Shown one piece after another: positions 2,500 to 28,899 of a DNA stretch of 33,189 nucleotides. Where the stretch lies: contig CALFPI010000452.1 in assembly GCA_937919035.1 (NCBI GenBank), positions 1-33,189 of the forward strand. Direction: 5' to 3'. Under the pieces are notes generated by a model. The model made no database searches. It saw only the letters and a program-made list of their open reading frames with translations, and was not told the DNA's origin. Source of the DNA: an uncultured Gemmatimonadaceae bacterium. Its GTDB lineage: Bacteria > Latescibacterota > UBA2968 > UBA8231. Positions within the stretch are counted from its first letter, which is position 1. Each line of letters starts with the position of its first letter. Made by a program: the position numbers and the translations under genes.

Positions 2500-2504
2500 G
2501 AACC

Positions 2505-4736: not shown

Positions 4737-4763
4737 CGGTTCCACAGAAAGAGAGCGCCCCCG

Positions 4764-6653
4764 GTGTTCATGCGTCTCCGTCTTCTGGTTTTCTGTCTGC
4801 CGCTCGTTGGTGCCACGGTCGCGGAGGCAGAGTTCCGCGTCCAACCGTACCTGCAGAACCCGACGGCGACGTCCATGACGGTCGTCTGGTTTTCGGCAGA
4901 GGACGCAGCGGGCACGCTGACGCTTTTCGCCGGACCGGCGACGACCCCCATCGCCGAAAAGATCTCACGCCCTGAGGCAGCCACAGCCCTGGCCTATCCC
5001 GGGTGGGAGGCGCAGAAGTTTTTTTCCGGCAACGCCCCGGCGCCGCCCTTCGCCCACCAGATTGATCTGGTTGGACTGGCACCGCGACGAACCTATCGCT
5101 ACCAGGTCCGGCAGGGCGCCGAAGCCTGCGGGGGTTTTTTCACCACCGCGCCGCAACCAAGCAGCGGTCCCGTGCGGTTGATCTTCTTCGCCGACAGTGA
5201 GACCGAACCGGAGTCCACGGACAAGCGTGTGGACTGGCCCGATCCAACAGCACCGGGGCAGCCCCGTCCCTACCTGCTCGATCAGACAACCGGCTTTGCC
5301 AACAACCTGCGCGTCATTCTCGAGCGCGACCCGGATCTGCTCCTCATCGCCGGAGATCTGGTGGAATCGGGGGGTGAGCAGCGCGATTGGGACGAGTTCT
5401 GGATGCACATGACCGACGTCGACGGCATCAACCTGGCAGGTCGCATTCCACTGCTGGCAGCGCCCGGCAACCATGAGTACTACGAAGGGCCGTCGATGGG
5501 GGGCTACAACCAGCCGGGTTCGGAACAGGCCGTCGGCCGCTTCCGCAGGTACTTCAGCGTCCCGGAAAATGGCAACCACGATCCAGCTGCACGAGATCGT
5601 TACTATCGCCTCGACTATGGCCCCGTGACGCTCATTGCCCTCGATGTGACCAACGGTTCGCCACACGGCTCCAGTGACGACACCAATTTCTTCCTCCTCG
5701 GTGCGGGTGAGGCCGGTGGCGGCGCCTCCCCCGGATTCGGCCCCGGCTCAGAGCAGTATGCATGGCTGGAAGCGCAGTTGGCCGACGCTCGTGAGCGCAG
5801 CGCCTTCACCTTCGTGTTCTTCCATCACGTGCCATACTCGGTAGGACCCCACGGCTGGCCCCCGGGTGAAGGTGAGGGTGAGGATACTCAGTCGGGTGTC
5901 CCCGTGCGCAGCCTCACACCACTGTTCCACCAATACGGTGTGGATGCATTGATCGCCGGTCACGATGAGATGTGGGAACGGTCGGAGCTCGACGGCACGG
6001 AAGTGTTGCCTGACGGCAGTCGCGTAGCGCACACGCTACAGGTCTACGACGTGGGCATTGCCGGCGACGGCCTGCGGGGACCCGAGGTCGGTCTGCACAA
6101 CCCCTATCAGAGATTCTTCGCCCACACCGACGCGCCCGAGGTCTGGGTCGAGGGCAGACTGCTTTCCGGTGGCAAGCACTACGGCCATCTTGAGGTGGAT
6201 GTTCTGCGTACCGGCACCGGTGGCTGGCAGGCCGTGCTCAAGCCCGTATACATCTTTCCGTTGATGGACACAGATCATCTCCAGAGCGTCGAACGACGTC
6301 TCTACGGAGATGTGGTGACGTTGACTTCCGCGCCGCGTGCCACGGCCGTGTTGGGGGAAGAGCGAGTCGCAGCGGCGGCGTCCGCCTTCGAACAACCGTA
6401 CCCGAATCCGTTCAACGGCTCGGTACTGCTGCGTTTCTCACTGGCAACAGCGACCACCGTCCACGTCGATGTCTACGATGTGGCGGGGCAACGCGTGCGG
6501 CGCCTGCTGCATGAGGCACGTGGCGCTGGTCATCATGCTGTGGAATGGGATGCGACGGACGACGCCGGCGGCGCGCTTGCCAGCGGCATCTACCTGTTCA
6601 GGCTGCAGGCCGGCGCCCTGATGGATACGGTGGCGGCGGCGCTCATCCGCTGA
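4764..6653 (+). CDS. Secreted purple-acid-phosphatase-like metallophosphoesterase with PNPFN-type C-terminal domain
   Basis: The product is 629 residues. GTG 4764 lies 8 bases after a GAAAGAGAG purine run; ATG 4770 is an alternative. A signal peptide covers about residues 1-22. Residues 24-128 form a fibronectin-like N-domain typical of purple acid phosphatases (RVQPYLQNPTATSMTVVW). The metallophosphoesterase core shows FFADSE (144-146), AGDLVESGG (196-204), GNHE (235-238), FFHHVPYS (352-359) and AGHDEMWER (398-406). The first motif reads D-S-E rather than the common D-x-H, so one metal site may be unusual. The C-terminal 90 residues (PYPNPFNGS, VDVYDVAGQRV, GIYLFRL) match the sorting/FlgD-like domain of the gene before it. 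Predicted to hydrolyse phosphomonoesters or diesters outside the cell. A hairpin follows the stop. Confidence 0.85.
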   Translation: MFMRLRLLVFCLPLVGATVAEAEFRVQPYLQNPTATSMTVVWFSAEDAAGTLTLFAGPATTPIAEKISRPEAATALAYPGWEAQKFFSGNAPAPPFAHQIDLVGLAPRRTYRYQVRQGAEACGGFFTTAPQPSSGPVRLIFFADSETEPESTDKRVDWPDPTAPGQPRPYLLDQTTGFANNLRVILERDPDLLLIAGDLVESGGEQRDWDEFWMHMTDVDGINLAGRIPLLAAPGNHEYYEGPSMGGYNQPGSEQAVGRFRRYFSVPENGNHDPAARDRYYRLDYGPVTLIALDVTNGSPHGSSDDTNFFLLGAGEAGGGASPGFGPGSEQYAWLEAQLADARERSAFTFVFFHHVPYSVGPHGWPPGEGEGEDTQSGVPVRSLTPLFHQYGVDALIAGHDEMWERSELDGTEVLPDGSRVAHTLQVYDVGIAGDGLRGPEVGLHNPYQRFFAHTDAPEVWVEGRLLSGGKHYGHLEVDVLRTGTGGWQAVLKPVYIFPLMDTDHLQSVERRLYGDVVTLTSAPRATAVLGEERVAAAASAFEQPYPNPFNGSVLLRFSLATATTVHVDVYDVAGQRVRRLLHEARGAGHHAVEWDATDDAGGALASGIYLFRLQAGALMDTVAAALIR

Positions 6654-7707: not shown

Positions 7708-9663
7708 GTGAAGAATCTGCGCCACATTCTGCTCCTCTCCTGCCTCCTGGCTGCTGCTGCCGAGGCTGAATTGTTCGTTGTTGGTGGCAGCCAGCACCCC
7801 TGGCGGGACGCGGGCACCACCCCCGGCGGGGTTATTCGCTTCGTCGACGACCTGAGCAGCATCCGTGATGGTGATGTGCCGCTCTTTGCCGGGGCGGCGG
7901 ATTCCCTCGATGGGTGGATTGTCCCGGTTCGTGTCGATCCCACTGCCAACATCTCGCTGGATGTGCTCGAGCGCGGTGGCAGCATCGATATCAACCTGTC
8001 CGCCGAGCAGGTCGATCAGGGACAGCTGGAGGGCATGCTCAACGGGGACCATACCGTCGCCTTTGACCGCAAGCCCATCGACGGTCGGGCCATCCAGAAC
8101 AACGGGATCATCGTCACCCTCGATCTGGGCGCTCGCTTCGGTGTCAATCGCATCCTGTTCTACCCACGTATGACCCAGTCCTTCCCATTCGGCAATGACT
8201 TCATGCGTGGGTATGAGCTGTACCTGAACGATGGCTTGCCGGCCAATCTGTTTGCCAGCGGCCAGCCCAACTTCGTGTCACCGGTACGGCGTGTGCCAGA
8301 CAACAGCGATACCGTCGTTGTAACCGATATCGATCCGCAGTTCGTCCGTTACATCCAGCTGAAGTCGATTATCAATGCGGGATACGAGATTGACGAACTC
8401 GAGATCTACGGCACCGGCTTTGTTCCCGAGGCGGCGTACGAGTCGCTGCCGCTGGAGATGACGAGCGAATCCGTATGGGGTGTGATCCGCTGGCTCGAGC
8501 AGACAGCCGGTGAATCCACCGATTCTGCCATCGAAGTCCGCGTCCGCAGCGGCTCCGACGACACGCCCGACGCCTACTTTCGCGAGTTGCTCGTCGGCGG
8601 CGTTCGTACCGGACTGTCCGCCGAAGACGAGCAGGGCACGCTGCTGACGGAGGCCAGCTATCAGCGTCTGCTGCGTGAGGGACGGGCGGTGATCAAGCAG
8701 ACCGACATCGACAACTGGAGCGGCTGGCAATTGGTGGCCAACGGCGAGCGTCTGACCCTGCCTGCTCCCAGGAAATATTTCCAGTTCCGCATCGATTTCG
8801 CCAATGAGTCTCTCGATGCAACGCGGGCGCTGGCGCAGTTGAGTTTCGAATTCGACCCGCCCCCTGTGGATGCACTCATCGCCGAGGTGACACCGGCAGA
8901 GGCGCAGATCGCCACGGAGACGACATTCACATTTGTCGCTCGTGTCGACAACGAATCAGGTCGCGATGGTTTCGATCGCTTCGAGATTGAGACGCCGGCA
9001 CGGGTGACGGCTGTGCGCTCCGTCGAACTGCAGGATTCGCTGTTGCAGGGTATCGGGCGGGCGGATTTCTCGCTCGATGACCTGTCGAACCTGCCAGTCA
9101 CCCATGGTGATTTTGTGCTCGAGTCCGTGACCGACGACCATTTCACTCTGGGCCTGCCTCGTATCACGGCATCGGGCACACGTATCAAGGTGGTCTTCGA
9201 TGGTGCCGTGTTCCGCTACGGTACGAGATTCCAGGGCAGGGCCTTCGCCAGCGGTGTTGCTCTGCCATTGCTCACCGAAGGTGGGGATGCAACCTCGGAA
9301 ATCAGCACCAATGACCAGTTGGTCCGTGTCACGCTGGGCTCGCAGATCGCCGGCGCCGTACATGCTCAACCCGCCGTGTTCACGCCGAACGCGGACGGTG
9401 TGAATGATCAGACATCCATTCAATACTCCATCCTGCATCTGCTGACGCCGTCGCCTGTTGATGTCAGCATCCACGACCTCAGCGGTCGGCGGGTTCGCAG
9501 CCTGCAGGTTGCCGATGCAATCAGTGGTCGATTCCTCATTGCCTGGGACGGTCGTGATGCCGCCGGCAAGCTTGTGCCCCCGGGGATCTATCTGATTGCC
9601 GTGGAAATCCGGTCCGACGCGGGTTCCGAACGCAGCGTCGGGCAGGTGGCCGTGGTCTATTAG
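7708..9663 (+). CDS. Secreted discoidin-like surface protein with FTPNADG-type C-terminal domain (paralogue 1)
   Basis: The 651-residue product uses a GTG start and has a signal peptide of about 20 residues ending AEAE. Mature sequence begins LFVVGGSQHPW, like paralogue 2 (VFQFGGGSGLPW). A discoidin (F5/8 type C)-like fold spans about residues 80-235: NGDHTVAF, a DLG motif in LDLGARFGVNRILFY, RGYELYLNDG, then a closing strand DELEIYG. A middle region has NWSGWQ and a beta-domain with FDRFEIET and VFRYGTRFQG. The end has FTPNADGVND, VSIHDLSGRRVRSL, WDGRDAAGK and PPGIYLIAV, a FlgD-like Ig domain of the gliding-motility-associated kind, and finishes VAVVY. Probably surface-displayed and binds a glycan or other ligand. 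It is 14 bases ahead of the outer-membrane-like gene. No good SD is seen. Confidence 0.8.
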   Translation: MKNLRHILLLSCLLAAAAEAELFVVGGSQHPWRDAGTTPGGVIRFVDDLSSIRDGDVPLFAGAADSLDGWIVPVRVDPTANISLDVLERGGSIDINLSAEQVDQGQLEGMLNGDHTVAFDRKPIDGRAIQNNGIIVTLDLGARFGVNRILFYPRMTQSFPFGNDFMRGYELYLNDGLPANLFASGQPNFVSPVRRVPDNSDTVVVTDIDPQFVRYIQLKSIINAGYEIDELEIYGTGFVPEAAYESLPLEMTSESVWGVIRWLEQTAGESTDSAIEVRVRSGSDDTPDAYFRELLVGGVRTGLSAEDEQGTLLTEASYQRLLREGRAVIKQTDIDNWSGWQLVANGERLTLPAPRKYFQFRIDFANESLDATRALAQLSFEFDPPPVDALIAEVTPAEAQIATETTFTFVARVDNESGRDGFDRFEIETPARVTAVRSVELQDSLLQGIGRADFSLDDLSNLPVTHGDFVLESVTDDHFTLGLPRITASGTRIKVVFDGAVFRYGTRFQGRAFASGVALPLLTEGGDATSEISTNDQLVRVTLGSQIAGAVHAQPAVFTPNADGVNDQTSIQYSILHLLTPSPVDVSIHDLSGRRVRSLQVADAISGRFLIAWDGRDAAGKLVPPGIYLIAVEIRSDAGSERSVGQVAVVY

Positions 9664-9677
9664 AACGAGAGGTTGAT

Positions 9678-12347
9678 GTGCGGAACCAGACAACAAAATT
9701 CGCCATTTTCTGGCCCATCCTGCTGTGTGTGTCCATGGCGCAGACGCTTGCAGCCCAGGACTACGGTTCGCGCCTGGGTGTGACTCAACGCGGAGGCGTC
9801 GTCACCTTCGAACCCAAGGGCCCCGGCGTGCTGTTCGACGCACTCGATCCGGCGGTGCGCAAGTGGTACGTGCCCCAGGAGCTGTACAACGAGTACGGAT
9901 ATCGCAACTGGGACTACACCAACTACGCCCGGGAGCGCTACGAGCGCTACGTCGACACAGCGTTGGAAGGTGACTACTTCTACGACCTGTACGGGTCGCT
10001 CGTCACCCGTGGCTGGCTGGTCTACGACTGGCAGGAGGACCGTCCCCAACAGTTCGGCAGCACGATTTTCAAGACGCGCCGATACCGGGACTGGTTCAAT
10101 CGGGTTGTGATCGCCTCCGACTCCAAGGGGCAGTACCACTACACGCTGACCATCGGCGACCAGATCCGCTCGACGTTGACGCCGATGACGTTCTCGAAGC
10201 CGGCTTTCAACGGAATTCAGTGGGATTTTGCCGCCGACAAGTACGAAGGCACTGTGTTGCTGGCGCGGCCGAGCCGCCCGGCAGAGGTCTTCGACAACGA
10301 GATTCCGGATACACGCACGAGTGTGACCAACCTGTTGGGTGGCCGCGGTGTTGTGCAGGTGGGTGACTTCATCAAACTGGGGGCAACGTATGTATCGGCC
10401 TTCCAGGCGCAGACGCTGCGAGACGATGTCGCCGGCACACCCTTCTCTGGCGGGTCGCTGACAACGGATCAGAATTCGGTGCCCATATCCCGCATCGTCA
10501 TCCGCCTCTCCGACGATTCACCTGAGGATGGCACGGGCGGCGCCGCCCTGTTTGACGACGAAATCGTCATCACCGATGTCGACGGCAACGTGCTGCGAGG
10601 TGGTGAGATCGGCTTCGAACCCATCCGCGAGGGGGGGTTCCAGCGCGTCGGGTTCCTGGCGGCAGACGGCAACGAGCGCATCACCCTGACGTATGACTTC
10701 ACCGATCCGGGGTACCTGGGGCCGGACCGGTCGGTCATCAAGGATGTGGCTTTCGAGATGGTCGTTTCCAACGACTATCGGATCGAAGTGACCTCGGACC
10801 GCCAGACCAACAGCGACCTGCAACCGGTGTTTCTACTGGCAGAGCGTGCCCCGGGAAACATTCAGGACAACTCCAACCAGCGGTTGTTGCGGTTCAGTTA
10901 CGGTCTGCCGACGTCGAACGTCATCTACGGGTTCACTCTGGAAGCCAGCAAAGTTCTCGGTTTCGACCTGTACGGAGAGTATGACATTAACACCCGCTAC
11001 CGGCAGTATCCCAACGTCAATCGATCGACGCACGCCACCGCGACGGACGAGGCCAGCGCCTGGATGGTGAACCTGTCGCGCACGACCTACCCGTGGTTCG
11101 TGTCTTTCGAGGGGTACAGTATGGACAGCGACTACTCGACGAGCACCTTCCTGGCCGGCACCCGGCAGCAGGATGAAATCGACTACGAGGACAAGCGCCT
11201 CTACCTCTACGAATTCGTCGAGGACAACGACGATCAGGACCGGCGGCCGGACTGGGAACGCTTTGGTCAGCCCGTGGTCGACAACGCGATCTTTCCGGGG
11301 TACGACGAGAACAATGACTTCATCTCCGATTTCAACCAGAACGACACTGATGATCGTCCCAACCTGATCCCTGACTACGACGAGCCCTTTCTCCGCTACC
11401 ACACGGATCGACCCGAGTTTCTCTTCGGTGTCGACATGAACAACAACGGCTGGATCGATCGCTTCGAGAACGATGACGAGCCCGACTACCCCTACCAGCG
11501 GGATCATCGCGGCTACAACGCCTATGGTGGCATACATCTGATGGCGGATGCTCGCCTGACGGCGGGCCGCATCGATGAACGCGAGATCTCCGGGGATGGC
11601 AACAATCGCACGACGTATGTGATGTTCACCCTGGATCGTGATCTGCCCGCCCTGGGGCGTCTGCGGGTGTATGAATATCTGCGCCTGGCAGAGGATGACA
11701 TTGAGAACAACCTGCTCCAATGGGTGCAGCCCACGGACTCCCGGGGAGCCTTGCAGCGGGTCTTCGATCCACTGGCGGCACAGGACACCTGGATCAATAC
11801 CACCTATTTGCAGTTCGACTATCGCAGCCTGAAGCGGCTGAATGTGATCAACAAGATCAAAGTGGAGACGTTCTCTCAGCGCGATACGCCCCTCGGCCTG
11901 CGGGACCGGGGCAGCTTTATCGGGGTGATCAACAAGGCGGACTATACCGTCGACGTCGGGCACGTGCAGATCCAGCCCCGTTGGAAGAGTGAGTTTCTCC
12001 GGCAGCGTCCGGTGCTCAAACGTGACCCGGTGCGCCGGGAACTGATCGAGACGTTGTTCCTCGTCTCGCGCTTCCCGGTACTGCGCCAGACCGTCCTTGA
12101 ACTCGGACTGGAGATTTCTCACTTCGAACAGTTCCGTGACGAGGATGGTGTGCCCGTCAACAGGGCGCTGGCCCCCGACTCGAACAGCCGTGTCCTCGGT
12201 TTTCAGATCAGCAACAACTCTGCCTATCTGGGCTATGATCTCAACGTGCGCGCTGGTCTGCGACTGCAGAAAGAGACCTTTGAGACGTTGCCGTCGAGCA
12301 CGACGAGTTCCCTGTTCATGACGATCTACGCTGGCCTTGGGAACTGA
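9678..12347 (+). CDS. Large secreted, probable outer-membrane protein with EF-hand-like calcium loops
   Basis: The 889-residue product starts at GTG 9678, with GAGAGG (9667-9672) 5 bases upstream. A signal peptide ends near LAAQ (residue 26). The rest is rich in Tyr, Arg, Asp and alternating hydrophobic residues, with many short amphipathic strands and no internal hydrophobic helix, as expected of an outer-membrane beta-barrel or barrel-associated protein. Residues about 500-615 are extremely acidic. They include DMNNNGWIDRFE (11433-11468), which matches an EF-hand loop at positions 1, 3, 5, 6, 8, 9 and 12, and a second related loop, DENNDFISDFNQ (11304-11339). I know no characterised family for it. 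It sits between paralogue 1 and the CBM9-like gene. The C-terminal residue is Asn, not the aromatic residue of classical barrels, so the barrel call is inference. Confidence 0.7.
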   Translation: MRNQTTKFAIFWPILLCVSMAQTLAAQDYGSRLGVTQRGGVVTFEPKGPGVLFDALDPAVRKWYVPQELYNEYGYRNWDYTNYARERYERYVDTALEGDYFYDLYGSLVTRGWLVYDWQEDRPQQFGSTIFKTRRYRDWFNRVVIASDSKGQYHYTLTIGDQIRSTLTPMTFSKPAFNGIQWDFAADKYEGTVLLARPSRPAEVFDNEIPDTRTSVTNLLGGRGVVQVGDFIKLGATYVSAFQAQTLRDDVAGTPFSGGSLTTDQNSVPISRIVIRLSDDSPEDGTGGAALFDDEIVITDVDGNVLRGGEIGFEPIREGGFQRVGFLAADGNERITLTYDFTDPGYLGPDRSVIKDVAFEMVVSNDYRIEVTSDRQTNSDLQPVFLLAERAPGNIQDNSNQRLLRFSYGLPTSNVIYGFTLEASKVLGFDLYGEYDINTRYRQYPNVNRSTHATATDEASAWMVNLSRTTYPWFVSFEGYSMDSDYSTSTFLAGTRQQDEIDYEDKRLYLYEFVEDNDDQDRRPDWERFGQPVVDNAIFPGYDENNDFISDFNQNDTDDRPNLIPDYDEPFLRYHTDRPEFLFGVDMNNNGWIDRFENDDEPDYPYQRDHRGYNAYGGIHLMADARLTAGRIDEREISGDGNNRTTYVMFTLDRDLPALGRLRVYEYLRLAEDDIENNLLQWVQPTDSRGALQRVFDPLAAQDTWINTTYLQFDYRSLKRLNVINKIKVETFSQRDTPLGLRDRGSFIGVINKADYTVDVGHVQIQPRWKSEFLRQRPVLKRDPVRRELIETLFLVSRFPVLRQTVLELGLEISHFEQFRDEDGVPVNRALAPDSNSRVLGFQISNNSAYLGYDLNVRAGLRLQKETFETLPSSTTSSLFMTIYAGLGN

Positions 12348-12561
12348 GGCTGCCAGCACCTGCAGAATGGCAGTTGCTTCGTCGGCCAATATTGCGGTAA
12401 TTGCTTGTTAAATATGTTGTTGGATTCGGTGTGATCACGCTCAAGGGCCGCGGCTGGGGAGATCCCTTGCAGGCCCTGTGTGTGTTGGATAGCTTAGCAA
12501 GAAGATCTTAGGGACGTTCAGGATCGCGTCCATCATCTCCATCATCAGCAGGAGCACCCAG
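12348..12561 (+). promoter_or_regulatory. Intergenic leader, probably carrying the promoter of the CBM9-like gene
   Basis: These 214 bases hold no supported ORF. An AT-rich patch (about 12388-12424) stands out from the G+C-rich surroundings and is the most likely promoter site, but I could not fix convincing -35/-10 boxes. The end contains the SD GGAG (12551-12554) for the ATG at 12562. The gap suggests the CBM9-like gene can be transcribed separately from the two genes before it. Confidence 0.35.
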
Positions 12562-13419
12562 ATGAAGAGAGCCATAACCGCATTTGCTCTGGCGACGATG
12601 TTGTTTGCCGTCAGTGCCTCCGCCCACCAGGGCGATGTGAGGTTCATGTTCCAGTTCCCTGCCGGCCTGGAGCCCACGCTTGACGGCGATTTCGGTGATT
12701 GGTCCATCGTCCCCGAGGTCTACTACGCCCGCGCCGAGAACATGTTCAACCAGTACGGAGCCCCCCTCGATCTGAGCGACTTCAACGCCTTCACGGTTTG
12801 GGGATACTCGCTGGCGACCAACAAGGCGTATTTCGCCTACTGGGTGGCGGACGACATGGTCCACAACACCGAGAAGTGGTCGACCACGACGGACTGGGAC
12901 CACACGGGTGGTCAGTTCCGCAGCTTCAGTGGCGAGAGTGATGAGTTCGTCGCGCGCTGGGCCGGCGCTCAGGGCCAGCGGTATGACATCTATGGCCCCA
13001 CCTTTGCATCTGGTGGCTACTATGTGCGTGCCCATGACAAGGCCTGGGCTGGCGAGCCGCCGTATCTCGAGTGGGGTGGCAAGTATCTGAAGGGTGAAGC
13101 GGGGACCTTTGAGCCAGCCGAGCTGCAGGGCGAGGTCGCTTTTGTCCCCTTCGATGACGCACACCCCGACGGTCCCGAAGCCAGCACCGAGCATCAGTTC
13201 GCTGTCAATCAGATCGTCGGTATCGAGACGAACTGGGGTGACAAGGATCCCGATCCGGGCGCCTACGACGATGCCTACTGGTCGATCTTCGGTGGCATTG
13301 GTGCTTCAGCCAACGCCGATGTCTTCGGTGACTACCTGCTGGCTCCTCTCGAGCCGGGTCTGCCCACAGCCGTACAGGCTGGCACTTGGGGGCAGGTGAA
13401 GGCCTCCTTCGCCGAATAA
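12562..13419 (+). CDS. Secreted protein with CBM9-like (carbohydrate-binding family 9) domain
   Basis: The 285-residue product has a clear signal peptide (MKRAITAFALATMLFAVSASA) and SD GGAG 7 bases before ATG. The mature part opens with FPAGLEPTLDGDFGDWS, the N-terminal signature of CBM9-type domains ('DGxxxDW'). It continues with aromatic, beta-rich sequence such as AYFAYWVADDMVHN, corresponding to the usual 'lyvaf.v.Dd' strand. No catalytic domain, transmembrane segment or FlgD-like C-terminal domain is seen; the whole protein appears to be one binding module. Its own leader and a strong downstream hairpin suggest a single-gene transcript, perhaps abundantly expressed. Likely a periplasmic or extracellular glycan-binding protein; the ligand is not known. 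Confidence 0.75.
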   Translation: MKRAITAFALATMLFAVSASAHQGDVRFMFQFPAGLEPTLDGDFGDWSIVPEVYYARAENMFNQYGAPLDLSDFNAFTVWGYSLATNKAYFAYWVADDMVHNTEKWSTTTDWDHTGGQFRSFSGESDEFVARWAGAQGQRYDIYGPTFASGGYYVRAHDKAWAGEPPYLEWGGKYLKGEAGTFEPAELQGEVAFVPFDDAHPDGPEASTEHQFAVNQIVGIETNWGDKDPDPGAYDDAYWSIFGGIGASANADVFGDYLLAPLEPGLPTAVQAGTWGQVKASFAE

Positions 13420-13462
13420 GCGCAACTGTTGGCTTGATCAAGCGAGGATCCATTGCATGACG

Positions 13463-13494
13463 GGCGGGGCTCACGAAGTACGGTGAGCCCCGCC
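13463..13494 (+). terminator. Strong stem-loop, probable rho-independent terminator
   Basis: GGCGGGGCTCAC (13463-13474) pairs perfectly with GTGAGCCCCGCC (13483-13494) around an 8-base loop, followed by GTCCTGTTT. The 12-bp G+C-rich stem is the best terminator candidate in the window. The T-run is short. It separates the CBM9-like gene from paralogue 2, whose start lies 26 bases downstream. Confidence 0.65.
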
Positions 13495-13520
13495 GTCCTG
13501 TTTCACGTCGTGAGGGAGCT

Positions 13521-15380
13521 ATGGCTGGCGTAATCATCTTTGTCGCCGCTCTGCTGCTATGTGCCGGTCCGGCGCAGGCACGTGAGGTGTTTCAGTTCGG
13601 TGGTGGCTCGGGACTGCCTTGGTCGGAGCAGGGGACTCTTTCCTTCATCAACACCGAGAGTGCGCCCGGCAGCATCCGCCCCTTTGAGACGGAACCCACG
13701 CACAACCTGATCTTGTCCATGCGCTCTCGCGGTGGCGATGTGTCGAGCCTGCTCAATACCTACACACTGGCCGGCGAATGGATCGGGGGTGACTCGGAGT
13801 TCGTCATCGACGGTGATTCAACGACGGCTTTTGTGCATCCACCCCGGATTGTGATTCTCGGTGGCGGTGGCGGCTTCTGGACAGTACCCATGTTCTTCGA
13901 TCTGGGTGCCCCGTTCCTGGTGGAACGTATCCGTTTTTTCACGCGGCCCGACCATCCTGAGAATCAGATGCGCGGATACGTGCTGTTCCTCAACGACGGA
14001 ACCGACGCCACCAAGGACGAAGTGGGCAACCTCATCTGGACGAAATATCGGGACGAGATCGACAACCTCGAGAGCGTCGTCGATCTCGACATCGAGCCAC
14101 AGATGGTGCGCCACATCCGCTTGCGTCCGGGCACGATGGCCAGCAACGGCGGCCTGAGCGAAACCTGGGAGGTGGCGGAAATGCAGGTTTTTGGGCGCGG
14201 CTTTGTGCCCACGGCCAGCTTTGTCTCCGCCCCCATCGATCTCGGTGAACCGGCAAGTCTGGGGACCATTCGCTGGGCGTGGCACGTCGATCCGGGTGCC
14301 CAGATCGTCGTGCAGACTCGCAGCGGTGTCGACGATCAGGCCAGCGTCTACTGGCGCAAGACGGGGATCGGCACCGAAATCTCCCCCCTCGACGAGCGGG
14401 GCCAGCCATTGACGGCGGACAGTTACAACCTGCTGCGCCCGGACAAGCGCGGCGGTATTACCGATGATCTGAGCAACTGGAGTCCCTGGCAGACATACGA
14501 ACTGGAAGATGGGCGGCAGGGCACGCAGTTGTTGTCCCCGAGCCCACGGCGCTACGTCCAGGTGCGCGTGCAACTGTTCTCGGTAGGGCTTGCCGGCGGC
14601 CAACTGGATTCGCTCTCCTTTGACTACTCACAGCCGCCCGTTGCGCGTGCCGCCATCGGCGAAATTTCGCCATCGCTGGTGGAGCCCTCCACCAGTACCC
14701 TGTTCACCTACGCAGTACGGGCCCGCATCGATGCGGGCCAGTCCGGCTTCGACGCGTTGCGTCTGAGCACGGTCGCCCAGATCGATTCGATCACCGCGGT
14801 GCGGATCAACCGCCAATCCGTCGACTTCAGCACGACGCTGCTGGCAGATGGCAGCCGGTCGGTGAGTTTTCCGCGCATTGTGCAGGATCAGACGCTGCTC
14901 GAAGTCGATCTGCTCGCCCGCGTATTTCGCTATGGCACACCCTTCGATGGCTCCGTCAGCGATTCGGCGACGGACGAGGTGGCTCTGCAAGTTTCCGCCG
15001 GCGATGCTGCCGCCGATGTGGTTGGTGATGATCTCATGGTGCGCATAAGACTCGTCGACGAACTGCTGTCCGATCTGCGCGTCCACCCCAATCCCTTCAC
15101 GCCCAACGGCGATGGCCTGAACGATCTGACGACGGTGTCCTTCTCGCTGCTGCGCCTGACCACAGCCACACCGGTAGCGCTGCGCATTTTCGATCTGGCG
15201 GGACGGCTCGTACGCCGCCTCGAGGTGGAACTGGCAGGCAGCAGTGCCGCGCAATTGCAGTGGGATGGTCGCAATGACAAGGACGTCCTGCTGCCGCCCG
15301 GATTGTACGTGTTTCGCCTCTCCATCGAATCCGATGGGGGCACGCAGGACCGCGTCGGCCACATCGCGCTGGCATACTGA
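13521..15380 (+). CDS. Secreted discoidin-like surface protein with FTPNGDG-type C-terminal domain (paralogue 2)
   Basis: The 619-residue product has GAGGGAG just before its ATG and a signal peptide ending near AQA (residue 16). Its order of parts matches paralogue 1: N-terminal VFQFGGGSGLPW; a discoidin-like region (about 90-230) with DGDSTTAF, FFDLGAPFLVERIRFF, RGYVLFLNDG and AEMQVFG; then TIRWAW and NWSPWQ; a beta-domain with FDALRLST and VFRYGTPFDG; and a C-terminal domain with HPNPFTPNGDGLND, LRIFDLAGRLVRRL, WDGRNDKD and PPGLYVFRL. It ends IALAY. The isomerase gene begins 3 bases after the stop. Predicted to be exported and surface-held; ligand unknown. Confidence 0.8.
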   Translation: MAGVIIFVAALLLCAGPAQAREVFQFGGGSGLPWSEQGTLSFINTESAPGSIRPFETEPTHNLILSMRSRGGDVSSLLNTYTLAGEWIGGDSEFVIDGDSTTAFVHPPRIVILGGGGGFWTVPMFFDLGAPFLVERIRFFTRPDHPENQMRGYVLFLNDGTDATKDEVGNLIWTKYRDEIDNLESVVDLDIEPQMVRHIRLRPGTMASNGGLSETWEVAEMQVFGRGFVPTASFVSAPIDLGEPASLGTIRWAWHVDPGAQIVVQTRSGVDDQASVYWRKTGIGTEISPLDERGQPLTADSYNLLRPDKRGGITDDLSNWSPWQTYELEDGRQGTQLLSPSPRRYVQVRVQLFSVGLAGGQLDSLSFDYSQPPVARAAIGEISPSLVEPSTSTLFTYAVRARIDAGQSGFDALRLSTVAQIDSITAVRINRQSVDFSTTLLADGSRSVSFPRIVQDQTLLEVDLLARVFRYGTPFDGSVSDSATDEVALQVSAGDAAADVVGDDLMVRIRLVDELLSDLRVHPNPFTPNGDGLNDLTTVSFSLLRLTTATPVALRIFDLAGRLVRRLEVELAGSSAAQLQWDGRNDKDVLLPPGLYVFRLSIESDGGTQDRVGHIALAY

Positions 15381-15382
15381 GA

Positions 15383-17092
15383 ATGATGGATCGACGAACT
15401 TTCGTGCTGCTCGTTCTGCTCTTCGCTGTCGCGTGTGAGAGACCAGCGCCCCCGGCGGAGCCCGGGGTGGTGGCGCGCATTGATTCGCTTCGCATCATGC
15501 GGGGGGACGTGCAGGCTTTCGCTGCCAGGACCTCTGCGGCGGGTGATCCGGACCGTCGTCGTCAGTCCTACCTGCGGGGACTCATGGCCCGTCATCTGCT
15601 GGAGAGAGAGGCGCACAATCTGGGCCTCGATACACTCGCCCGTGTGCGGATCCAGACCGAAGTTCAGTGGCAGGGCCGCATGCGCGAGCGCTATCGGCGC
15701 GACGTATTGTGGCGCAATCTGCAGGTTACCGATGCGGATATCGAAGCCTACTTCGACAGCCTTGGCCTCGGCAGCCAGCGAGAGGTATCCGGTATCCTGG
15801 TCGAAACACGATCGCAGGCCGAGGCGGCGCTGGCTGAACTGCATCAGGGCCGCCCCTTCGACGCCGTCGCGCGGACCTATTCGCAGCATAAGTCATCCGC
15901 CCAGCTTGGTGGCAGGCTGGGTTTCATCTCGCAGCCTCAGGCGCGTGTACTGCAGATCCCGGACAGTCTTTTCAGTGGCCTGTCCGACGGCGTGATTTCG
16001 CCTCTGCTGCCACAGGGTGAGCGCTTCCAGATCATCCGCTTCACTGGTCGCCGGGAGGTCGCACTCGACGAGCATCGCATTCAGATCCGTAACGTGCTCA
16101 AAACGGCCGCCCTTGGGCGGGCTGAGCAGCAGGCGCTGAATGAATTGGCCGGCGAATTCCATTGGCAGCTACAGTCCAGGGGCCTACGGATGTTGCAGAG
16201 CAAGGGGGCCGCAACAAACGGGGTCCAGCCCTGGCAACTGACCGAGGAGGAAGCGGCCGAGCCGCTGTTCACCTACGACGGTGGTATCATCAGCGTCGGT
16301 CAGTACGTGCAGGGCCTGGCATCTGCCGGCAAGGTGCAGCCGGATCGTGCCGGTGACAGTGCGGGTGCCAAGGAGGGTGATCCTCTCCTGGTCTCGGCTG
16401 TGGTCGACAATTTCCGCACGGCGGCGCTGTTCTACGAAGCCTCGCGTCGCTCCGGCCTCGGCGACAACGACGCAGATCGTCGCTGGCGGCAGCAACTGCT
16501 CGTGGAACTGGCGATCAGAGAGCTGCGCCGGATGCGGCTGAGTGAAGCCGAAGAGATCAGTACGGAAGATGCGCGAACGTTTTATGATTCCTACCCCGAG
16601 GCTTTCCGCGAGGCGGATCAGATCGTCATTGTTGAGGCGCATGTGGACAGTCTCGATGAGGCCGAAGAGGTCGTCGCCGCTGTCCGTGGCGGTCAGCCCC
16701 TGGCGGAGGTGGCAGCGGCGCACACAAAGAGGGGCGAATCCCTGTGGCAGGCGAAGGGTGTGCTGCGTCTGGGTCACAAGGAAAGGCTGCAGATGCCCGA
16801 GCTCTATGCGGCAGCGCAGGAAGCTGAGACGGGCCGACTGATTGGCCCGCTCGCCGTCGACGGGGGCTACAGTGTCTTTGAGGTACTGGATCGCCAACGT
16901 GGCGTGGTTCCCGAATTCGCCAAGATTGAAAAGCGGGCCCGGGGTCTGGCGGGTCGCCAACGGGAGAGTGAGCAGTTCGAGGCATTCGTCGACGAACTGT
17001 TGAGCAAGTATGCTGATCTGGTTTCTGTGTATCCCGAGGAGCTGGCCGGCGCCCTGCCCGACTCTCTTCTCGAGCGGTTGTCCGCGGACTGA
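15383..17092 (+). CDS. Peptidyl-prolyl cis-trans isomerase (SurA/PrsA-like) lipoprotein with two parvulin-type domains
   Basis: The 569-residue product has a short hydrophobic signal and a probable lipobox FAVAC (Cys18), so it should be lipid-anchored in the periplasm. Residues 20-125 form a helical chaperone-type N-domain, with an RQSYLRGLMARHLLEREA-like segment typical of SurA/PrsA. Residues about 130-225 are a parvulin-like domain: VSGILVETRSQAEAAL, GRPFDAVARTYS, LGGRLGFIS, and a closing FQIIRFTGRRE. A second, more divergent unit lies at about 410-505 (VDSLDEAEEVVAAVRGGQPLAEVA, GPLAVDGGYSVFEVLDRQRG). A helical C-terminus follows. It would catalyse proline isomerisation and chaperone exported proteins. 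It is 3 bases after paralogue 2 and 24 bases before paralogue 3, so these are its likely clients. Confidence 0.85.
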   Translation: MMDRRTFVLLVLLFAVACERPAPPAEPGVVARIDSLRIMRGDVQAFAARTSAAGDPDRRRQSYLRGLMARHLLEREAHNLGLDTLARVRIQTEVQWQGRMRERYRRDVLWRNLQVTDADIEAYFDSLGLGSQREVSGILVETRSQAEAALAELHQGRPFDAVARTYSQHKSSAQLGGRLGFISQPQARVLQIPDSLFSGLSDGVISPLLPQGERFQIIRFTGRREVALDEHRIQIRNVLKTAALGRAEQQALNELAGEFHWQLQSRGLRMLQSKGAATNGVQPWQLTEEEAAEPLFTYDGGIISVGQYVQGLASAGKVQPDRAGDSAGAKEGDPLLVSAVVDNFRTAALFYEASRRSGLGDNDADRRWRQQLLVELAIRELRRMRLSEAEEISTEDARTFYDSYPEAFREADQIVIVEAHVDSLDEAEEVVAAVRGGQPLAEVAAAHTKRGESLWQAKGVLRLGHKERLQMPELYAAAQEAETGRLIGPLAVDGGYSVFEVLDRQRGVVPEFAKIEKRARGLAGRQRESEQFEAFVDELLSKYADLVSVYPEELAGALPDSLLERLSAD

Positions 17093-17104
17093 CCGATGAC
17101 TCTC

Positions 17105-17110
17105 AGGAGG
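17105..17110 (+). promoter_or_regulatory. Shine-Dalgarno site that decides the start of paralogue 3
   Basis: AGGAGG lies 6 bases before ATG 17117. An upstream in-frame ATG at 17096 has no SD and would place this site inside the coding region, so 17117 is the better start. Confidence 0.7.
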
Positions 17111-17116
17111 CGAAGA

Positions 17117-19771
17117 ATGCCGACGCTGTCCAGCAGATATCCGGGCGTGGTGCTCGTCGCGTTGTGCCTCATTCTGCCGCTTTCAGCGCAACAGGGATAC
17201 CGGTTGTCGAGTCGCGCCGTAGACGTCAGCACACGCTCGCACTGGCAGGCATGGAGTGCCGTGTCGCAACTGGTGAACATCTCGCCATCGGGCGCGGTCA
17301 GCCCCGTGCGCCTGGCGACACAGACCAATGCCGCCGCCGATGCCGCCGATTTCAGCTACCCCATCGCCGGCAATCTCAGCCAGCTGTTCAACAATTCCTA
17401 CAGTGACAACGGCACGCAGCGCGCGCGGGGTGGCATCAAGCTCGCCGGTACGACGGCGACAAGTGCAGACCGGATCATGGATGGCGCCATGGCGACCTTC
17501 TGGGAGCCGGACTCCACCGACGGCCTCGACAGCTGGTGGCTGGAAGTCGACCTGGGACGCCTGGTAAGCGCTTCGCGCCTTGTGGTCCGGTTCGTCGAGG
17601 ACACTGAAACCCGGCGCTCCGATCCGTTCCTGCAGTTTCGTGTCCACACAGCGACGGGACAGAACCCTTTCGGCGATCAGAGTGGCGCGCTGCAGTACCA
17701 GCTTGCTGGTGGCACCACGGAACCCAACATCGACAAGCGCGAATTCATCTTTGATCTCGAGCCATCGCAGACACACACCGATGGCTGGACGGGCCGGCTG
17801 GCGCAGTATGTGCGCCTGCAGGTGACCGGCACCCGGGGCACTCGGGCCGAGCAGGTCAGCGAAGAGGTGTGGGGGGCGTTGCCCGCAGCCGATCGCGGCA
17901 CCGTGGAGAACATCTGGCTCATTGCCGGCGAGCAACGACTGGTCACGGCCAGCGACTACGCCGCCCTGCCACCCGAAGAACAGGGCGGACTCCGGTTCTT
18001 TCGTCGCGAGCGGCCTCGCCTAGCAGAGCTTGAGGTCTGGACCGTTGGTGAGAACGTCTCCATGGGATTGCTGAATCGTGGTGGAACCCTGATCGACGGC
18101 AACCCCACTGCGGCACCGGAGTCGGCCTTTGACGGCAGCATTCAGACAAACTGGAATGCCGCCGTGTTCAGCACGGTAGGTGACATCGCTGGCTGGGGGC
18201 TGCTGACGGTAGATCTGGGCGCTCTGCTGCGCATCGACGCCACCCGGATCATCACGCGGGTCCTCGAGCGCGGCGAACGTGTCCTGTACGGGTACGAATT
18301 GCGCGGCTCCGACGGCTCGGTTGCCCCCGATGGCAGCCTCATCTGGGAAACGCTGAGCAATGAGGACCGCCTGCTCAATCAGGACACCCACCTCTTCGAA
18401 GACCGTTTCGAGCCGCGCTCCCTGCGCTACCTGGAGTTCCGCAACATGGACGTGGCGCGGCGTACAAATGCCCATCTCGGGCACCGTTTTCAGAGCGCCG
18501 TTACCGAGTTTCAGGTCTACTCCAGCGGTTACGTTCCCGAGATTGTGCTGACGTCGGATCTCATCGACCTGGCAGATTCGCGCACCTTGCGGACCATCAC
18601 CTGGGATGCCGATACACCCCCTGGAACATCCGTACAGATCCGCACCCGTACCGGCAACGATCTGCGCGAAGTCAGTCGCTACTTCCTGTCCAGCGGCGAA
18701 GAGGTGCCCAAGGCCGAATGGGACAGCAAACCTTCGTTCTTCCAGGGACCGATCGTCACGGAAACCGTACCCGGTCCCGGATGGAGCAACTGGAGTCAGG
18801 CCTACCTGAGCCCGGGAGAACGCATCCGCTCGCCGAGCCCGAGGCGGTATCTGACGATTGAAGCGCGTCTGTTATCGACGACGCCGGACACGGCCGCCGT
18901 CCTGCGATCGATCCGCATCCAGACATTGCCACCTGTCGCTGACGAACTGGCAGCGGAGATCAGTCCCAAGCAGGCTGTTCCAGTGGGGGAGTTGATCGAC
19001 TTCGAGATGTACCTGAAGCCGACGTTCGCCAGTGCCGCAAGGTCCGGATTCGATCTTTTGCGACTGACGGCACCGTCGCGAGCTTTGCTGCATCTGCGTG
19101 GTATCGAACGGGGTACCGAAGCCGAGCTCAGAGCCGGTTCGGCGGATGCTTTCACCGGTCTTGATGGCGATTCTCTATTGCATAACGCGGCAGGGCTTGC
19201 GGTGCAGGTCAGTGGTCAGGGTCGCGATACGCTGCTCGTCCGACTGCCCACAAGGGTACGAGCCGGTAGCAACGATCTGTTCCGCCTGAGATTCTCCTCG
19301 ACCGTGTTTCTGAGCGGCTCGACGTTCCAGCTGGCGGTGGCCAGTTCCAGTGCTGATACCCTCTGGCAAGAGGCGGATCCGGGGGACGTTGTCAGTGACG
19401 ATCTGGCACCAGGGGCGGGTCTGACCGTACTCACCACCCTCGGTGGGGGCAGCATCAAGATGGGTGAGGAAGCCGGCGTGTTCACACCGAATGGCGATGG
19501 ACACAACGACACGGCGGTCTTTTCCTTCGTCGTGCTCCGCGTCAATATCGACCGTGAAGTGAGCGTTGAGTTGTTCGATCTGCGCGGCAGCAAGGTTCGC
19601 AGCCTGCATGAAACCCGGGCCGAGGCAACGGGGACGTACCGAATCGAGTGGGATGGGTTGGACGAGGCGGGACAACTGGTGCCACCGGGTCTGTATGTCG
19701 CGCGTATCGGGATCGATACCGACGCCTCCGGCGGGGAGGCGGTCGCCACCGTTGTCGCCGTGGCCTACTGA
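17117..19771 (+). CDS. Secreted surface protein with two discoidin-like domains and FTPNGDG-type C-terminal domain (paralogue 3)
   Basis: The 884-residue product begins at ATG 17117, chosen by its SD. A signal peptide ends near LSAQ. It is larger than paralogues 1 and 2 because it has two discoidin-like regions. The first (residues about 95-315) has DRIMDGAMATFW, WWLEVDLGRLVSASRLVVRF and AELEVWTVG; the second (about 320-475) has AFDGSIQTNW, LLTVDLGALLRIDATRI and TEFQVYSSG. The rest follows the family plan: TITWDA, WSNWSQ, PSPRRYLTIEA, a beta-domain with FDLLRLTA and VFLSGSTF, then FTPNGDGHND, VELFDLRGSKVRSL, WDGLDEAGQ and PPGLYVARI, ending VAVAY. Likely exported and surface-held, binding carbohydrate or another ligand. 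It closes the cluster and converges on the sulfatase-like gene with a 14-base gap. Confidence 0.8.
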   Translation: MPTLSSRYPGVVLVALCLILPLSAQQGYRLSSRAVDVSTRSHWQAWSAVSQLVNISPSGAVSPVRLATQTNAAADAADFSYPIAGNLSQLFNNSYSDNGTQRARGGIKLAGTTATSADRIMDGAMATFWEPDSTDGLDSWWLEVDLGRLVSASRLVVRFVEDTETRRSDPFLQFRVHTATGQNPFGDQSGALQYQLAGGTTEPNIDKREFIFDLEPSQTHTDGWTGRLAQYVRLQVTGTRGTRAEQVSEEVWGALPAADRGTVENIWLIAGEQRLVTASDYAALPPEEQGGLRFFRRERPRLAELEVWTVGENVSMGLLNRGGTLIDGNPTAAPESAFDGSIQTNWNAAVFSTVGDIAGWGLLTVDLGALLRIDATRIITRVLERGERVLYGYELRGSDGSVAPDGSLIWETLSNEDRLLNQDTHLFEDRFEPRSLRYLEFRNMDVARRTNAHLGHRFQSAVTEFQVYSSGYVPEIVLTSDLIDLADSRTLRTITWDADTPPGTSVQIRTRTGNDLREVSRYFLSSGEEVPKAEWDSKPSFFQGPIVTETVPGPGWSNWSQAYLSPGERIRSPSPRRYLTIEARLLSTTPDTAAVLRSIRIQTLPPVADELAAEISPKQAVPVGELIDFEMYLKPTFASAARSGFDLLRLTAPSRALLHLRGIERGTEAELRAGSADAFTGLDGDSLLHNAAGLAVQVSGQGRDTLLVRLPTRVRAGSNDLFRLRFSSTVFLSGSTFQLAVASSSADTLWQEADPGDVVSDDLAPGAGLTVLTTLGGGSIKMGEEAGVFTPNGDGHNDTAVFSFVVLRVNIDREVSVELFDLRGSKVRSLHETRAEATGTYRIEWDGLDEAGQLVPPGLYVARIGIDTDASGGEAVATVVAVAY

Positions 19772-19785: not shown

Positions 19786-21326
19786 CTACTCGATGTAGCC
19801 CAGCGAGCGCAGCGTTCTGAGATCCTCCGGTGCGGCAGCAGGCGTTGCCAGTGGTGTGGTGGTCGACCATTCGTCCAACAGAGTCGACAGCCGCTCAGCC
19901 ACCGCCGGGAATTGAGCCGTCACGTCGTCGCGCTCCACCGGATCCTGCCGCAAATCATACAGCTGACGCACGAACCCTCCCTGCAACACGGGCCGCTCCA
20001 CCAGCTTGAAGCGTCCGTCCCGCAGGGCCCGTTCCCGCACTTGCTCGGGGCGCCATCGGCGCGAACTCTCCAGCAAACGTTGCAGGGCCTGCGGATGCTG
20101 CTCGGCAACGTCCGTCTCCAGGAAGGGGTCCGTCTCGTGGTCGAACAGGTGCGCTTCGCGCCCTGGAAATGCGCAAAGGGAGAAGCGTTCATCGTGAATA
20201 CATGTGCGGCTGTGGGTACGACCGGAGAAGATGCGCTTGGTGTAACTGACATTGAGGGCGCTGCCCGCCTCGATGCGGGCAATGGGCGTGGTCTCCCGTG
20301 CGGCACGTCCCTGGAGGCGGGCCGAGAGATCCAGGCCATCCAGGTCTGCCGGCAGGGGCAGACCCAGCAGTCCCAGCAGGGTGGGAGCCACATCCTCCAG
20401 GCGGATGGGCAGAGGGTCGGATCCACCTTCGATGCCCGGTCCTGTGACGATCAGCGGCACGTGCACGGCGGCGTCGTGCAGACTGGGGCCGTGGCCGTAG
20501 AAGAAGTCATCCTCGCCGAGATTTTCGCCATGATCAGAAGTCAACAGGACATAGGCGCCCTGGGTCAGACCGGCGGTTGACAGGGCATCCAGCAACTGAC
20601 CCACCTGCAGGTCGGCGTTGCTGATCTCGGCGTCGTACAACTGTGTGCAGTCATGCAGCGCTCGTGAGGAAAATCCCATCACGTCCCCCTCGACGTGACC
20701 CATGCGCAGGCGACCGGCACCAATCTCCGCCAGCAACCGTCGGCACTCCGGCGCCTGCGGTTGTGCCTGCTGAGTCTCTCTGGCTCGTAGGGGAAATGCG
20801 GGTCCATGAAGTGCACCCACAGAAACAGTTCGCGACCGGCGTCGACCCGCTGCAACAGCTCCAGGGCGGCGTCGACGACATGCTCTGCCGAGTCTTGCGG
20901 CAGAGCATCGGCCTCAACAAAAGCATCGAAGCCCCGATCCAGATGCTGACGCCCCCCGGCAGCGGGGTTGGCACTTACACCCACGGTTGTATAACCCTCG
21001 GCCTGCAGGATTTCGGCGAGGGTCGTTCCCCGGGTGAAAGGCTGCCAGATCTCCCGTGAACCATGGTGGTACGGTTGCAGCCCGGTGAACAACGAAGCGA
21101 TGGCCGGCGTCGTCCGCGGAAAGGGGGTCGTCGCCTGCAGAAACATCCGGCCCTGTTCGGCGAGCCGATCGATGGAGGGTGTAGCGCCGACGGCATAGCC
21201 GTATGCGCCCACGTGGTCGGCGCGCAGGGTATCGATCGTGATCAGGATGATGTTGGGGCGCGGCACATCCGAGCAGGTTGCCAGCAACAGCGGCAGGATC
21301 ACCACCAGTGCGGCACTCACCCTCAT
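19786..21326 (-). pseudogene. Sulfatase/alkaline-phosphatase-superfamily lipoprotein gene, disrupted by a frameshift
   Basis: The N-terminal half (21326 to about 20780) starts with a lipoprotein signal (LLLATC) and contains NIILITIDTLRADH, TPSIDRLAEQG, SLFTGLQPYHHG and VHFMDPHFPYEPE. The C-terminal half (about 20775 to 19786) continues in another frame with YDAEISNADLQVGQLLDAL, TSDHGENLGE and ends LRSLGYIE. The frame change falls at a (CT)3 run near 20773-20782 (plus strand). Restoring one base there gives a 513-residue protein of normal sulfatase length and order. The formylglycine motif C/S-x-P-x-R reads T-T-P-A-I, so classical sulfatase maturation looks impossible; a phosphodiesterase or phosphotransferase-type activity is more likely if the protein is made. 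Its start overlaps the acetyltransferase stop (ATGA). Either decayed or an assembly error. Confidence 0.8.
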
Positions 21327-21940
21327 GGCGTACCGTCCAGCCCCTGCAGCCAGTCTGCCAGCACAGGGTGATGGATGACGGTCTGCACATTGCGCCAGCC
21401 CTGTTGCACGTCGGGCTTGTCGAGTTGTCGAGGGTCCGGGCGGAAACCGAAATCGAGATACAGCTTCACCGCCCACGGCCGCCCCGCCGAGGTGCCCAGC
21501 ACGGCGCCGGCGTGGCTGCAGACAAGTCGTTCCATGGCGTGTGTCATCATCGCCTTGCTGATCCCACGCCCCTGATGCTCCGGGTGTACGACGACCCAGT
21601 GGATGCGACCCCGGTCCGTCGGCGTCGGTGGCTCATGCTCCCACCAGGCGCTGATGCTGGCCGCCGCCGCTCCTGCCTCGGTCTCGACGTACCACATGCG
21701 GTCCGGCAGGTCGCCGCGATGTTTGCCGTACTCCCGCTCAAACAGATCATCCGGGATGTCAAAGAAAGGTTCGGCCGCCCGCTGCAGCATGGTCCAGACC
21801 GAGTCATCACCAGGTCGAAACGGCCGCAACCGGTATCCCGCGGGCAGCACATGATGAGGTATGTCGGCGCCAACATCGCAAACCATGCCGAAGGACTGGT
21901 TCTCGTAGGTCACGCGCGGGTCTTTGGCCGCTCTGCTCAT
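21323..21940 (-). CDS. GNAT-family N-acetyltransferase
   Basis: The 205-residue product has a good SD (GAGGAA, about 8 bases before ATG). Residues about 36-80 (YRLRPFRPGDDSVWTMLQRA) form the N-terminal GNAT helices. Motif A is clear as IHWVVVHPEHQGRGISKAMM (about 113-132), with the Q-x-x-G-x-G-type acetyl-CoA pyrophosphate loop as QGRGIS. Motif B follows as AVKLYLDFGFRPD. It should transfer an acetyl group from acetyl-CoA to an amine; the acceptor is unknown. Its TGA overlaps the ATG of the sulfatase-like gene, so the pair is translationally coupled. Confident on family. Confidence 0.85.
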   Translation of the reverse strand: MSRAAKDPRVTYENQSFGMVCDVGADIPHHVLPAGYRLRPFRPGDDSVWTMLQRAAEPFFDIPDDLFEREYGKHRGDLPDRMWYVETEAGAAAASISAWWEHEPPTPTDRGRIHWVVVHPEHQGRGISKAMMTHAMERLVCSHAGAVLGTSAGRPWAVKLYLDFGFRPDPRQLDKPDVQQGWRNVQTVIHHPVLADWLQGLDGTP

Positions 21941-28892: not shown

Positions 28893-28899
28893 GTTGCCT

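Follow-up and report, generated by a model that had tools for sequence, protein, structure and literature searches.

A multicopy gene module of Latescibacterota that pairs discoidin-type secreted proteins with a predicted outer-membrane barrel and may serve surface display

How might an uncultured Latescibacterota bacterium export a set of large secreted proteins and hold them at its surface? The question is raised by six genes, all on the + strand, at positions 7708-19771 of the window, that is, of the whole stretch of DNA analysed here, one entire contig of 33,189 bases from a 5.9-Mb draft genome of this phylum (87% complete). Their order is P1, barrel, CBM9-like, P2, PPIase, P3. Gene calls are longest open reading frames (ORFs) and not an annotation, and every structure cited is predicted.

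7708-9663, + strand: P1, secreted; discoidin / beta-sandwich / Ig-chain with an FlgD_ig-CHU_C tail
9678-12347, + strand: barrel, 889 aa; predicted 24-strand outer-membrane beta-barrel, founder of its family
12562-13419, + strand: CBM9-like secreted protein, without a Pfam match of its own
13463-13494, + strand: terminator-like hairpin, 12-bp stem with 10 GC pairs and a weak T tail; a pattern match only
13521-15380, + strand: P2, paralogue of P1 (288 bits to P1)
15383-17092, + strand: PPIase with two PPIC domains (Pfam) and a lipoprotein signal
17096-19771, + strand: P3, longer paralogue with an additional N-terminal discoidin-like repeat

Only 14 bp separate P1 from the barrel gene, and the PPIase gene starts 2 bp after P2 and ends 3 bp before P3. 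The hairpin suggests two transcription units, P1-barrel-CBM9 and P2-PPIase-P3. Two gene calls of an earlier note on this DNA are revised: its P3 (17117-19771) keeps its end, but the ORF opens at the ATG at 17096 and 17117 is the second Met, while the EF-hand-bearing large secreted protein that it had listed apart from a barrel-like protein is one and the same gene, 9678-12347.

Further genes flank the module. Upstream, at 2337-6653 (+), an LVIVD beta-propeller protein and a metallophosphatase, both secreted, bear type A tails of the type 9 secretion system (T9SS) above the TIGR04183 cut-off, so that both tail types are neighbours in the window; the two genes were rejected as module members, as only the two nearest relatives have them in that place. 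Downstream, a sulfatase-family gene at 19786-21476 (-) is divided between two overlapping ORFs (20679-21476 for the N-terminal half, 19786-20820 for the C-terminal half), through either a genuine frameshift or an artefact of assembly. Further on, at 27657-29952 (+), a four-carbon sugar-acid kinase (SBD_N/NBD_C) adjoins a PdxA-like dehydrogenase, likely a sugar-acid catabolic pair.

The earlier note regarded the three P proteins as closely spaced paralogues of shared architecture, and this was borne out. Alignments are near full length for P1-P2 (32% identity, 288 bits, E 7e-93), P2-P3 (28% identity, E 5e-38) and P1-P3 (28% identity, E 3e-36), and the NWSxW, VFRYGTxF and FTPNxDGxND segments are a consensus across the P family. 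The possibility that the three are unrelated can thus be set aside, as they are full-length homologues; the claim of an identical domain order holds as near end-to-end homology, except for the additional N-terminal repeat of P3. The following features were assigned within them.

7975-8418, + strand: P1 discoidin-like domain, about residues 90-237; the family profile matches the PDB F5/8-type / CBM32-type chains 8ayr and 4a41 (E 0.004)
9370-9660, + strand: P1 C-terminal FTPNADGVND tail, T9SS type-B-like (CHU_C, FlgD_ig)
15087-15377, + strand: P2 C-terminal FTPNGDGLND tail (CHU_C at residues 523-616)
19478-19768, + strand: P3 C-terminal FTPNGDGHND tail (CHU_C, FlgD_ig)

The AlphaFold2 model of P1 (pLDDT 92) matches galactose-oxidase-type and Ig-chain proteins in Foldseek, and Pfam finds F5_F8_type_C_2 in two stretches of P3 (31.1 bits against a cut-off of 27.8). 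All three proteins (3/3) have the C-terminal FTPNxDGxND-type motif and a signal peptide read from the sequence, of the signal-peptidase-I type and not of the lipoprotein type. Pfam scores for the tails vary: P2 exceeds the cut-offs of both CHU_C (PF13585, gathering cut-off 27 bits; P2 33.9 bits) and FlgD_ig, P1 that of FlgD_ig only (39.6 bits, 5.2e-10; CHU_C 23.2 bits, 7.4e-5) and P3 neither (CHU_C 23.1, FlgD_ig 26.2 bits). CHU_C is over its cut-off in dozens of family members. TIGR04131 (cut-off 35 bits) stays below threshold for P1 (15.3 bits), P2 (28.5) and P3 (17.8); among 40 family members, 22 match it at E<0.001, with a best E of 2.5e-8.

The barrel is a more unusual component than the three discoidin proteins, which the earlier note had put first. 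It has no Pfam, NCBIfam or PDB-sequence family match, and neither have 44 aligned relatives, isolated chance-level matches aside. An AlphaFold2 model built with the alignment of these relatives (pLDDT 81.8, pTM 0.79) contains 24 membrane strands, as counted on its DSSP string. Its turns alternate, the even-numbered ones all being 2-6 residues long and the odd-numbered loops ranging from 3 to 156, and the model accordingly has ordinary outer-membrane topology with both termini predicted to be periplasmic. Two large predicted features lie outside.

10413-10880, + strand: inserted beta-domain, predicted to be extracellular, between strands 7 and 8 (residues 246-401, DSSP of the model)
11205-11504, + strand: predicted extracellular Asp/Asn-rich, Ca-binding-like loop (residues 510-609)

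The Asp/Asn-rich outside loop as a whole spans residues 483-609 in the model, and its 510-609 part is the most conserved of the barrel family, with a mean pairwise identity of 0.62 compared with 0.41 for the strands and 0.31 for the short extracellular loops. Outer-membrane barrels rarely have strongly conserved outer loops, and this conservation suggests a common partner or a Ca-dependent structure. The N-terminal segment 26-107 is conserved too but poorly modelled, and a plug may be located there. Foldseek returned only generic large barrels at low TM (SlpA, MtrB, FimD, porins), and none qualified as a known fold relative, as the TM-score normalised by target was at most 0.39. MtrB and Deinococcus SlpA are the best or near-best of these matches; they differ from the barrel in that TM is at most 0.35, the sequences are unrelated and no matching partner genes were seen. 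Homology to SprA was likewise rejected: the barrel HMM finds no SprA, and hhalign gives a probability of 2.3% and a single shared 34-column Asp/Asn motif.

Since SlpA is the best Foldseek match (E 6e-10) and the conserved loop is Asp/Asn-rich, Ca-dependent barrels and P proteins could be imagined to build an S-layer-like coat. We consider such a structural surface layer improbable, as the SlpA match has a TM of only 0.25 and a coat would be expected to consist of one protein and not of dozens of divergent paralogues.

The abundance of these paralogues is clearest in G018, a complete Latescibacterota chromosome (OX638377.1, 6.3 Mb), where the barrel ORFs number 47 and the P ORFs 90, in about 31 loci. 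The upstream neighbour of the 47 barrels is a same-strand P gene in 33 cases, another barrel in nine (tandem second members) and something else in five. In a wider, partly redundant set of 132 loci, P lies upstream in 107, 15 are family tandems and eight have no gene called there, mostly at contig edges. Often several P genes belong to one barrel in G018, or two barrels to one P. The source genome itself holds ten near-full-length barrel copies (41-100% identity) and several distant ones, and the majority of genomes in its family show at least a dozen barrel matches, the candidate copies reaching about 60. Carriage of the module on plasmids was considered and gave no match.

Companion genes recur along with the pair. 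In the 31 module loci of G018 we found PPIase in 26, CBM9-like in 25, TPR in 23, ASPIC/FG-GAP in 14, DUF6785 in 13 and a protein of about 265 aa in 12, as opposed to 0, 0, 1, 1, 1 and 0, respectively, in a background of 20 regions (400 kb) spread simply over the same chromosome. Barrels were absent from this background, and its P matches were weak ones of the tail type; because the 20-kb regions were picked for barrels, the enrichment of barrels is by construction, whereas that of the companions is not. The protein of about 265 aa (e.g. L201 18946-19998, -) has no Pfam match and occurs in other families of the phylum as well as in the 12 of 31 G018 barrel loci. In the window, the two-domain parvulin lipoprotein foldase of the earlier note was recovered as such (Rotamase_2 3.2e-13, Rotamase 9.1e-11; the lipoprotein call rests on an LFAVAC signal). 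Its CBM9-type protein is a looser assignment: the window copy matches nothing in Pfam, and a homologue scores 20.1 bits for CBM9_1, below the cut-off of 23.4.

Within G018, divergence of the barrels is mirrored by that of the P1/P2-type proteins (Mantel r 0.88), the CBM9-like proteins (0.69), the P3-type proteins (0.64) and the PPIases (0.43). This joint divergence indicates that modules duplicate as units; by itself it does not show contact.

Order is also conserved across genomes. The earlier note had named scattering of the genes in relatives as what would refute a system, and they are not scattered: the full six-gene order occurs in nine other genomes, which represent two other genera, and a third genus has part of it on a truncated contig. 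A variant in family f8 runs P1 - barrel - (TPR) - CBM9-like - P2 - P3, without the PPIase. In the barrel tree the window copy groups with its orthologues (support 1.0) and apart from the paralogues of the source genome, so that the paralogues are older than the split of the genera. Genomes of the same genus lack a close orthologue of the locus and its nearest relatives are in genus g3, so the contig may belong to another bin, or the locus may have been retained patchily; the source-genome paralogues sit on other contigs and are independent of the binning of this one.

More distant homologues extend the picture. Two genomes from outside the phylum encode a distant homologue of the barrel next to a gene with an FlgD/CHU_C tail, which there lies downstream. 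In the more distant clusters of family f6, as in one distant cluster of G018, P and barrel are separated by the gene of a PorV-like protein that scores below the family cut-off. Also outside the phylum, the partner of a distant barrel at L245 10438-12624 (+) has a type-B-like tail together with a fimbrial-type match to TafC (62 bits against a cut-off of 410), and genome G102 encodes distant relatives of the barrel, about 1110 aa long (L243, L244), that bear a lipoprotein-like signal and have no P gene recognised in their vicinity.

These observations bear on whether there is a system at all. Individual domains of this kind are common among secreted proteins, and independent genes might come together by chance; with the order kept in nine other genomes and about 31 loci against a near-zero background, this explanation is refuted and we give it practically no weight. 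The dedicated surface-display system proposed by the earlier note is well supported by the kept six-gene order and about 30 repeats per genome; the matrix assembly that it offered beside display found no specific support. The locus looks like one of some 30 related clusters per chromosome that form an unrecognised, much-multiplied surface display.

As to export, the earlier note saw no T9SS component in the window and left the route unexplained, a statement now superseded by the rest of the genome. SprA is present in the source genome (contig C252, 559 bits against a cut-off of 200) and exceeds its cut-off in 58 of the 60 genomes searched. PorV-family proteins occur in all five genomes tested, the source genome among them, and in a relative, G018, PorU (629.8 bits) adjoins PorV. 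The T9SS motor component GldM (TIGR03517) was found in none of seven genomes, where a divergent motor is possible, and PorP/SprF (TIGR03519) exceeded its cut-off in none of the 60; the barrel and its 44 aligned relatives do not match it either. SprA, PorU and PorV homologues over their cut-offs, with no GldM detected, are seen in Latescibacterota at L203, L206, L207 and C252. Families that lack the barrel have ORFs (about 400-1400 aa, e.g. L228 3788-6874) that match the SprA profile at positions of about 570-700 only and are possibly another SprA-related surface family. T9SS has been described as confined to Bacteroidota (PMC12618676), and our literature search found no paper on the barrel family or on T9SS in Latescibacterota.

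Tails and barrels vary together. Counts of CHU_C tails and barrels, which are first-look candidates from non-independent genomes (those without barrels come mostly from one clade and from f7), have a Spearman correlation of 0.93 over 60 genomes, 0.88 within the family and 0.92 there with genome size held constant. The median number of CHU_C matches is 39 in barrel-bearing genomes and 4 in barrel-less relatives, nearly all of both having SprA. On the G018 chromosome, 54 of the 83 CHU_C tails listed are no more than 10 kb away from a barrel gene, where 11% would be expected.

In Flavobacterium, type B cargo depends on a cognate PorP/SprF barrel, in most cases encoded immediately after it (PMC12618676), and published AP-MS from Bacteroidota shows such cargo attached to its cognate barrel, SprF and PorP binding their cargo at the surface (PMC9143113). 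The module resembles SprB-SprF and other type B pairs in that P is a large surface protein with a C-terminal FTPNxDGxND-type tail, the barrel gene lies directly downstream of the tailed gene, several cognate pairs occur per genome and SprA is present. It differs in its roughly 47 copies, its added PPIase, CBM9-like and TPR genes and the undetected GldM, and the barrel has 24 strands and large outside insertions, unlike the FadL-like PorP/SprF of about 14 strands.

Because the P-barrel order mirrors the logic of type B cargo and PorP/SprF, with a larger and unrelated barrel, we propose T9SS export and retention of P by the barrel. What is established is the genes and their family membership, the pairing with its copy number, the topology of the model and the presence of SprA and PorV in the source genome; from these we infer an export route, a P-barrel complex and a ligand, a reading that we hold tentatively and at not quite even confidence. 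The Sec pathway would take P proteins to the periplasm, where the PPIase lipoprotein may aid folding of the barrel and of P. The SprA (type 9) translocon would then move P across the outer membrane by means of the type-B-like FTPNxDGxND tail, and the 24-strand barrel encoded next to it would retain P at the surface, much as SprF does SprB, with the Ca-binding-like loop and the inserted domain as its likely docking surface. The CBM9-like protein and the discoidin domains would bind glycans and form an exposed glycan-binding platform, whose ligand may differ from one module copy to the next.

Docking is favoured because the gene order, cargo first and barrel second, is that of type B pairs, tails track and cluster at barrels, SprA and PorV are present and PorP/SprF was not found, and also because a tail gene lies beside a barrel outside the phylum, a PorV-like protein is encoded between P and barrel in f6 and barrels diverge in step with P among the paralogues of one genome. 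It is weakened by TIGR04131 scores below or near the cut-off, by P1 and P3 falling under the CHU_C cut-off and by the failure to find GldM, as well as by a barrel whose sequence is unrelated to PorP/SprF and which has 24 strands versus 14. Moreover, co-variation with the barrel for P1/P2-type proteins is r 0.24 for the tail and 0.90 for the P body, so that this mirror test gives no specific sign of recognition between tail and barrel. Such weak co-variation argues against direct recognition of the tail and allows PorV as the carrier: PorV could be the shuttle for P, with the barrel in another role.

Another rival reading makes the barrel usher-like, itself exporting P with the aid of the PPIase and independently of SprA. 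The 24 strands are those of FimD, which is among the Foldseek matches, and chaperone-usher systems likewise have Ig-like partners and a dedicated foldase; the PPIase and P genes are, in addition, translationally close. Yet TM-scores are about 0.2, neither the barrel nor its 44 relatives match an usher family in sequence or domain, and the foldase is a parvulin. SprA in the genome, tails of the T9SS kind and the frequent occurrence of several P per barrel, or two barrels per P, also make self-secretion hardly probable.

The strongest rival is SusCD-like uptake, in which the barrel would serve as an import channel for a specific substrate, with P and the CBM9-like protein capturing glycans outside and handing them through it and an ABC importer completing the pathway. 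Like SusC/SusD, the module combines a paralogous barrel with a surface partner of glycan-binding type many times per genome, with about 40-50 diversified paralogues, a number reminiscent of SusC. Solute-binding proteins and ABC permeases each make up 4 of 71 neighbours and neither ranks in the 25 most common background families, the window has the sugar-acid kinase and PdxA-like genes downstream, and SusD (PF07980) is found in 0 of 6 family genomes, which we count on the same side. Unlike SusC/SusD, however, the module has no plug match (0 of 44 barrel members match Plug, TonB-receptor or SusC families), no SusD, no lipoprotein P (the P signals being of the signal-peptidase-I type) and no clear glycan-degrading enzymes nearby: the leading neighbour families include no glycoside hydrolase, and enrichment of glycan-degrading enzymes among them was sought and rejected. 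Ordinary TonB receptors exist apart from it, at 13-28 matches per family genome, and the highest conservation falls in a predicted outside loop, which is unexpected for receptors of diverse ligands. A replacement of SusCD by reciprocal loss was also rejected, because TonB-receptor numbers show no fall in barrel-rich genomes and SusD, absent from the family, is nearly absent elsewhere, leaving no replacement signal. We consider uptake rather unlikely, and it could also hold for the same complex as docking. A broader view, which we find doubtful but somewhat less remote, is that the barrel family is a separate kind of surface assembly, with a 24-strand barrel, T9SS-delivered discoidin proteins, a conserved Ca-dependent extracellular docking loop that receives them and about 30 modules per chromosome, that would combine in Latescibacterota the roles that SusCD and SprF have separately in Bacteroidota.

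The 47 barrel ORFs, at about 0.9 kaa each, take up about 2% of the 6.3-Mb G018 chromosome and are without a Pfam or NCBIfam entry or a PDB-sequence relative. They link a barrel family to tails of the type-9-secretion kind in a phylum other than Bacteroidota. Relatives with SprA, without barrels and with very few tails provide a natural comparison for the anchoring of type B cargo. For uncultured Latescibacterota, the module is a concrete candidate for the handling of particulate or algal glycans.
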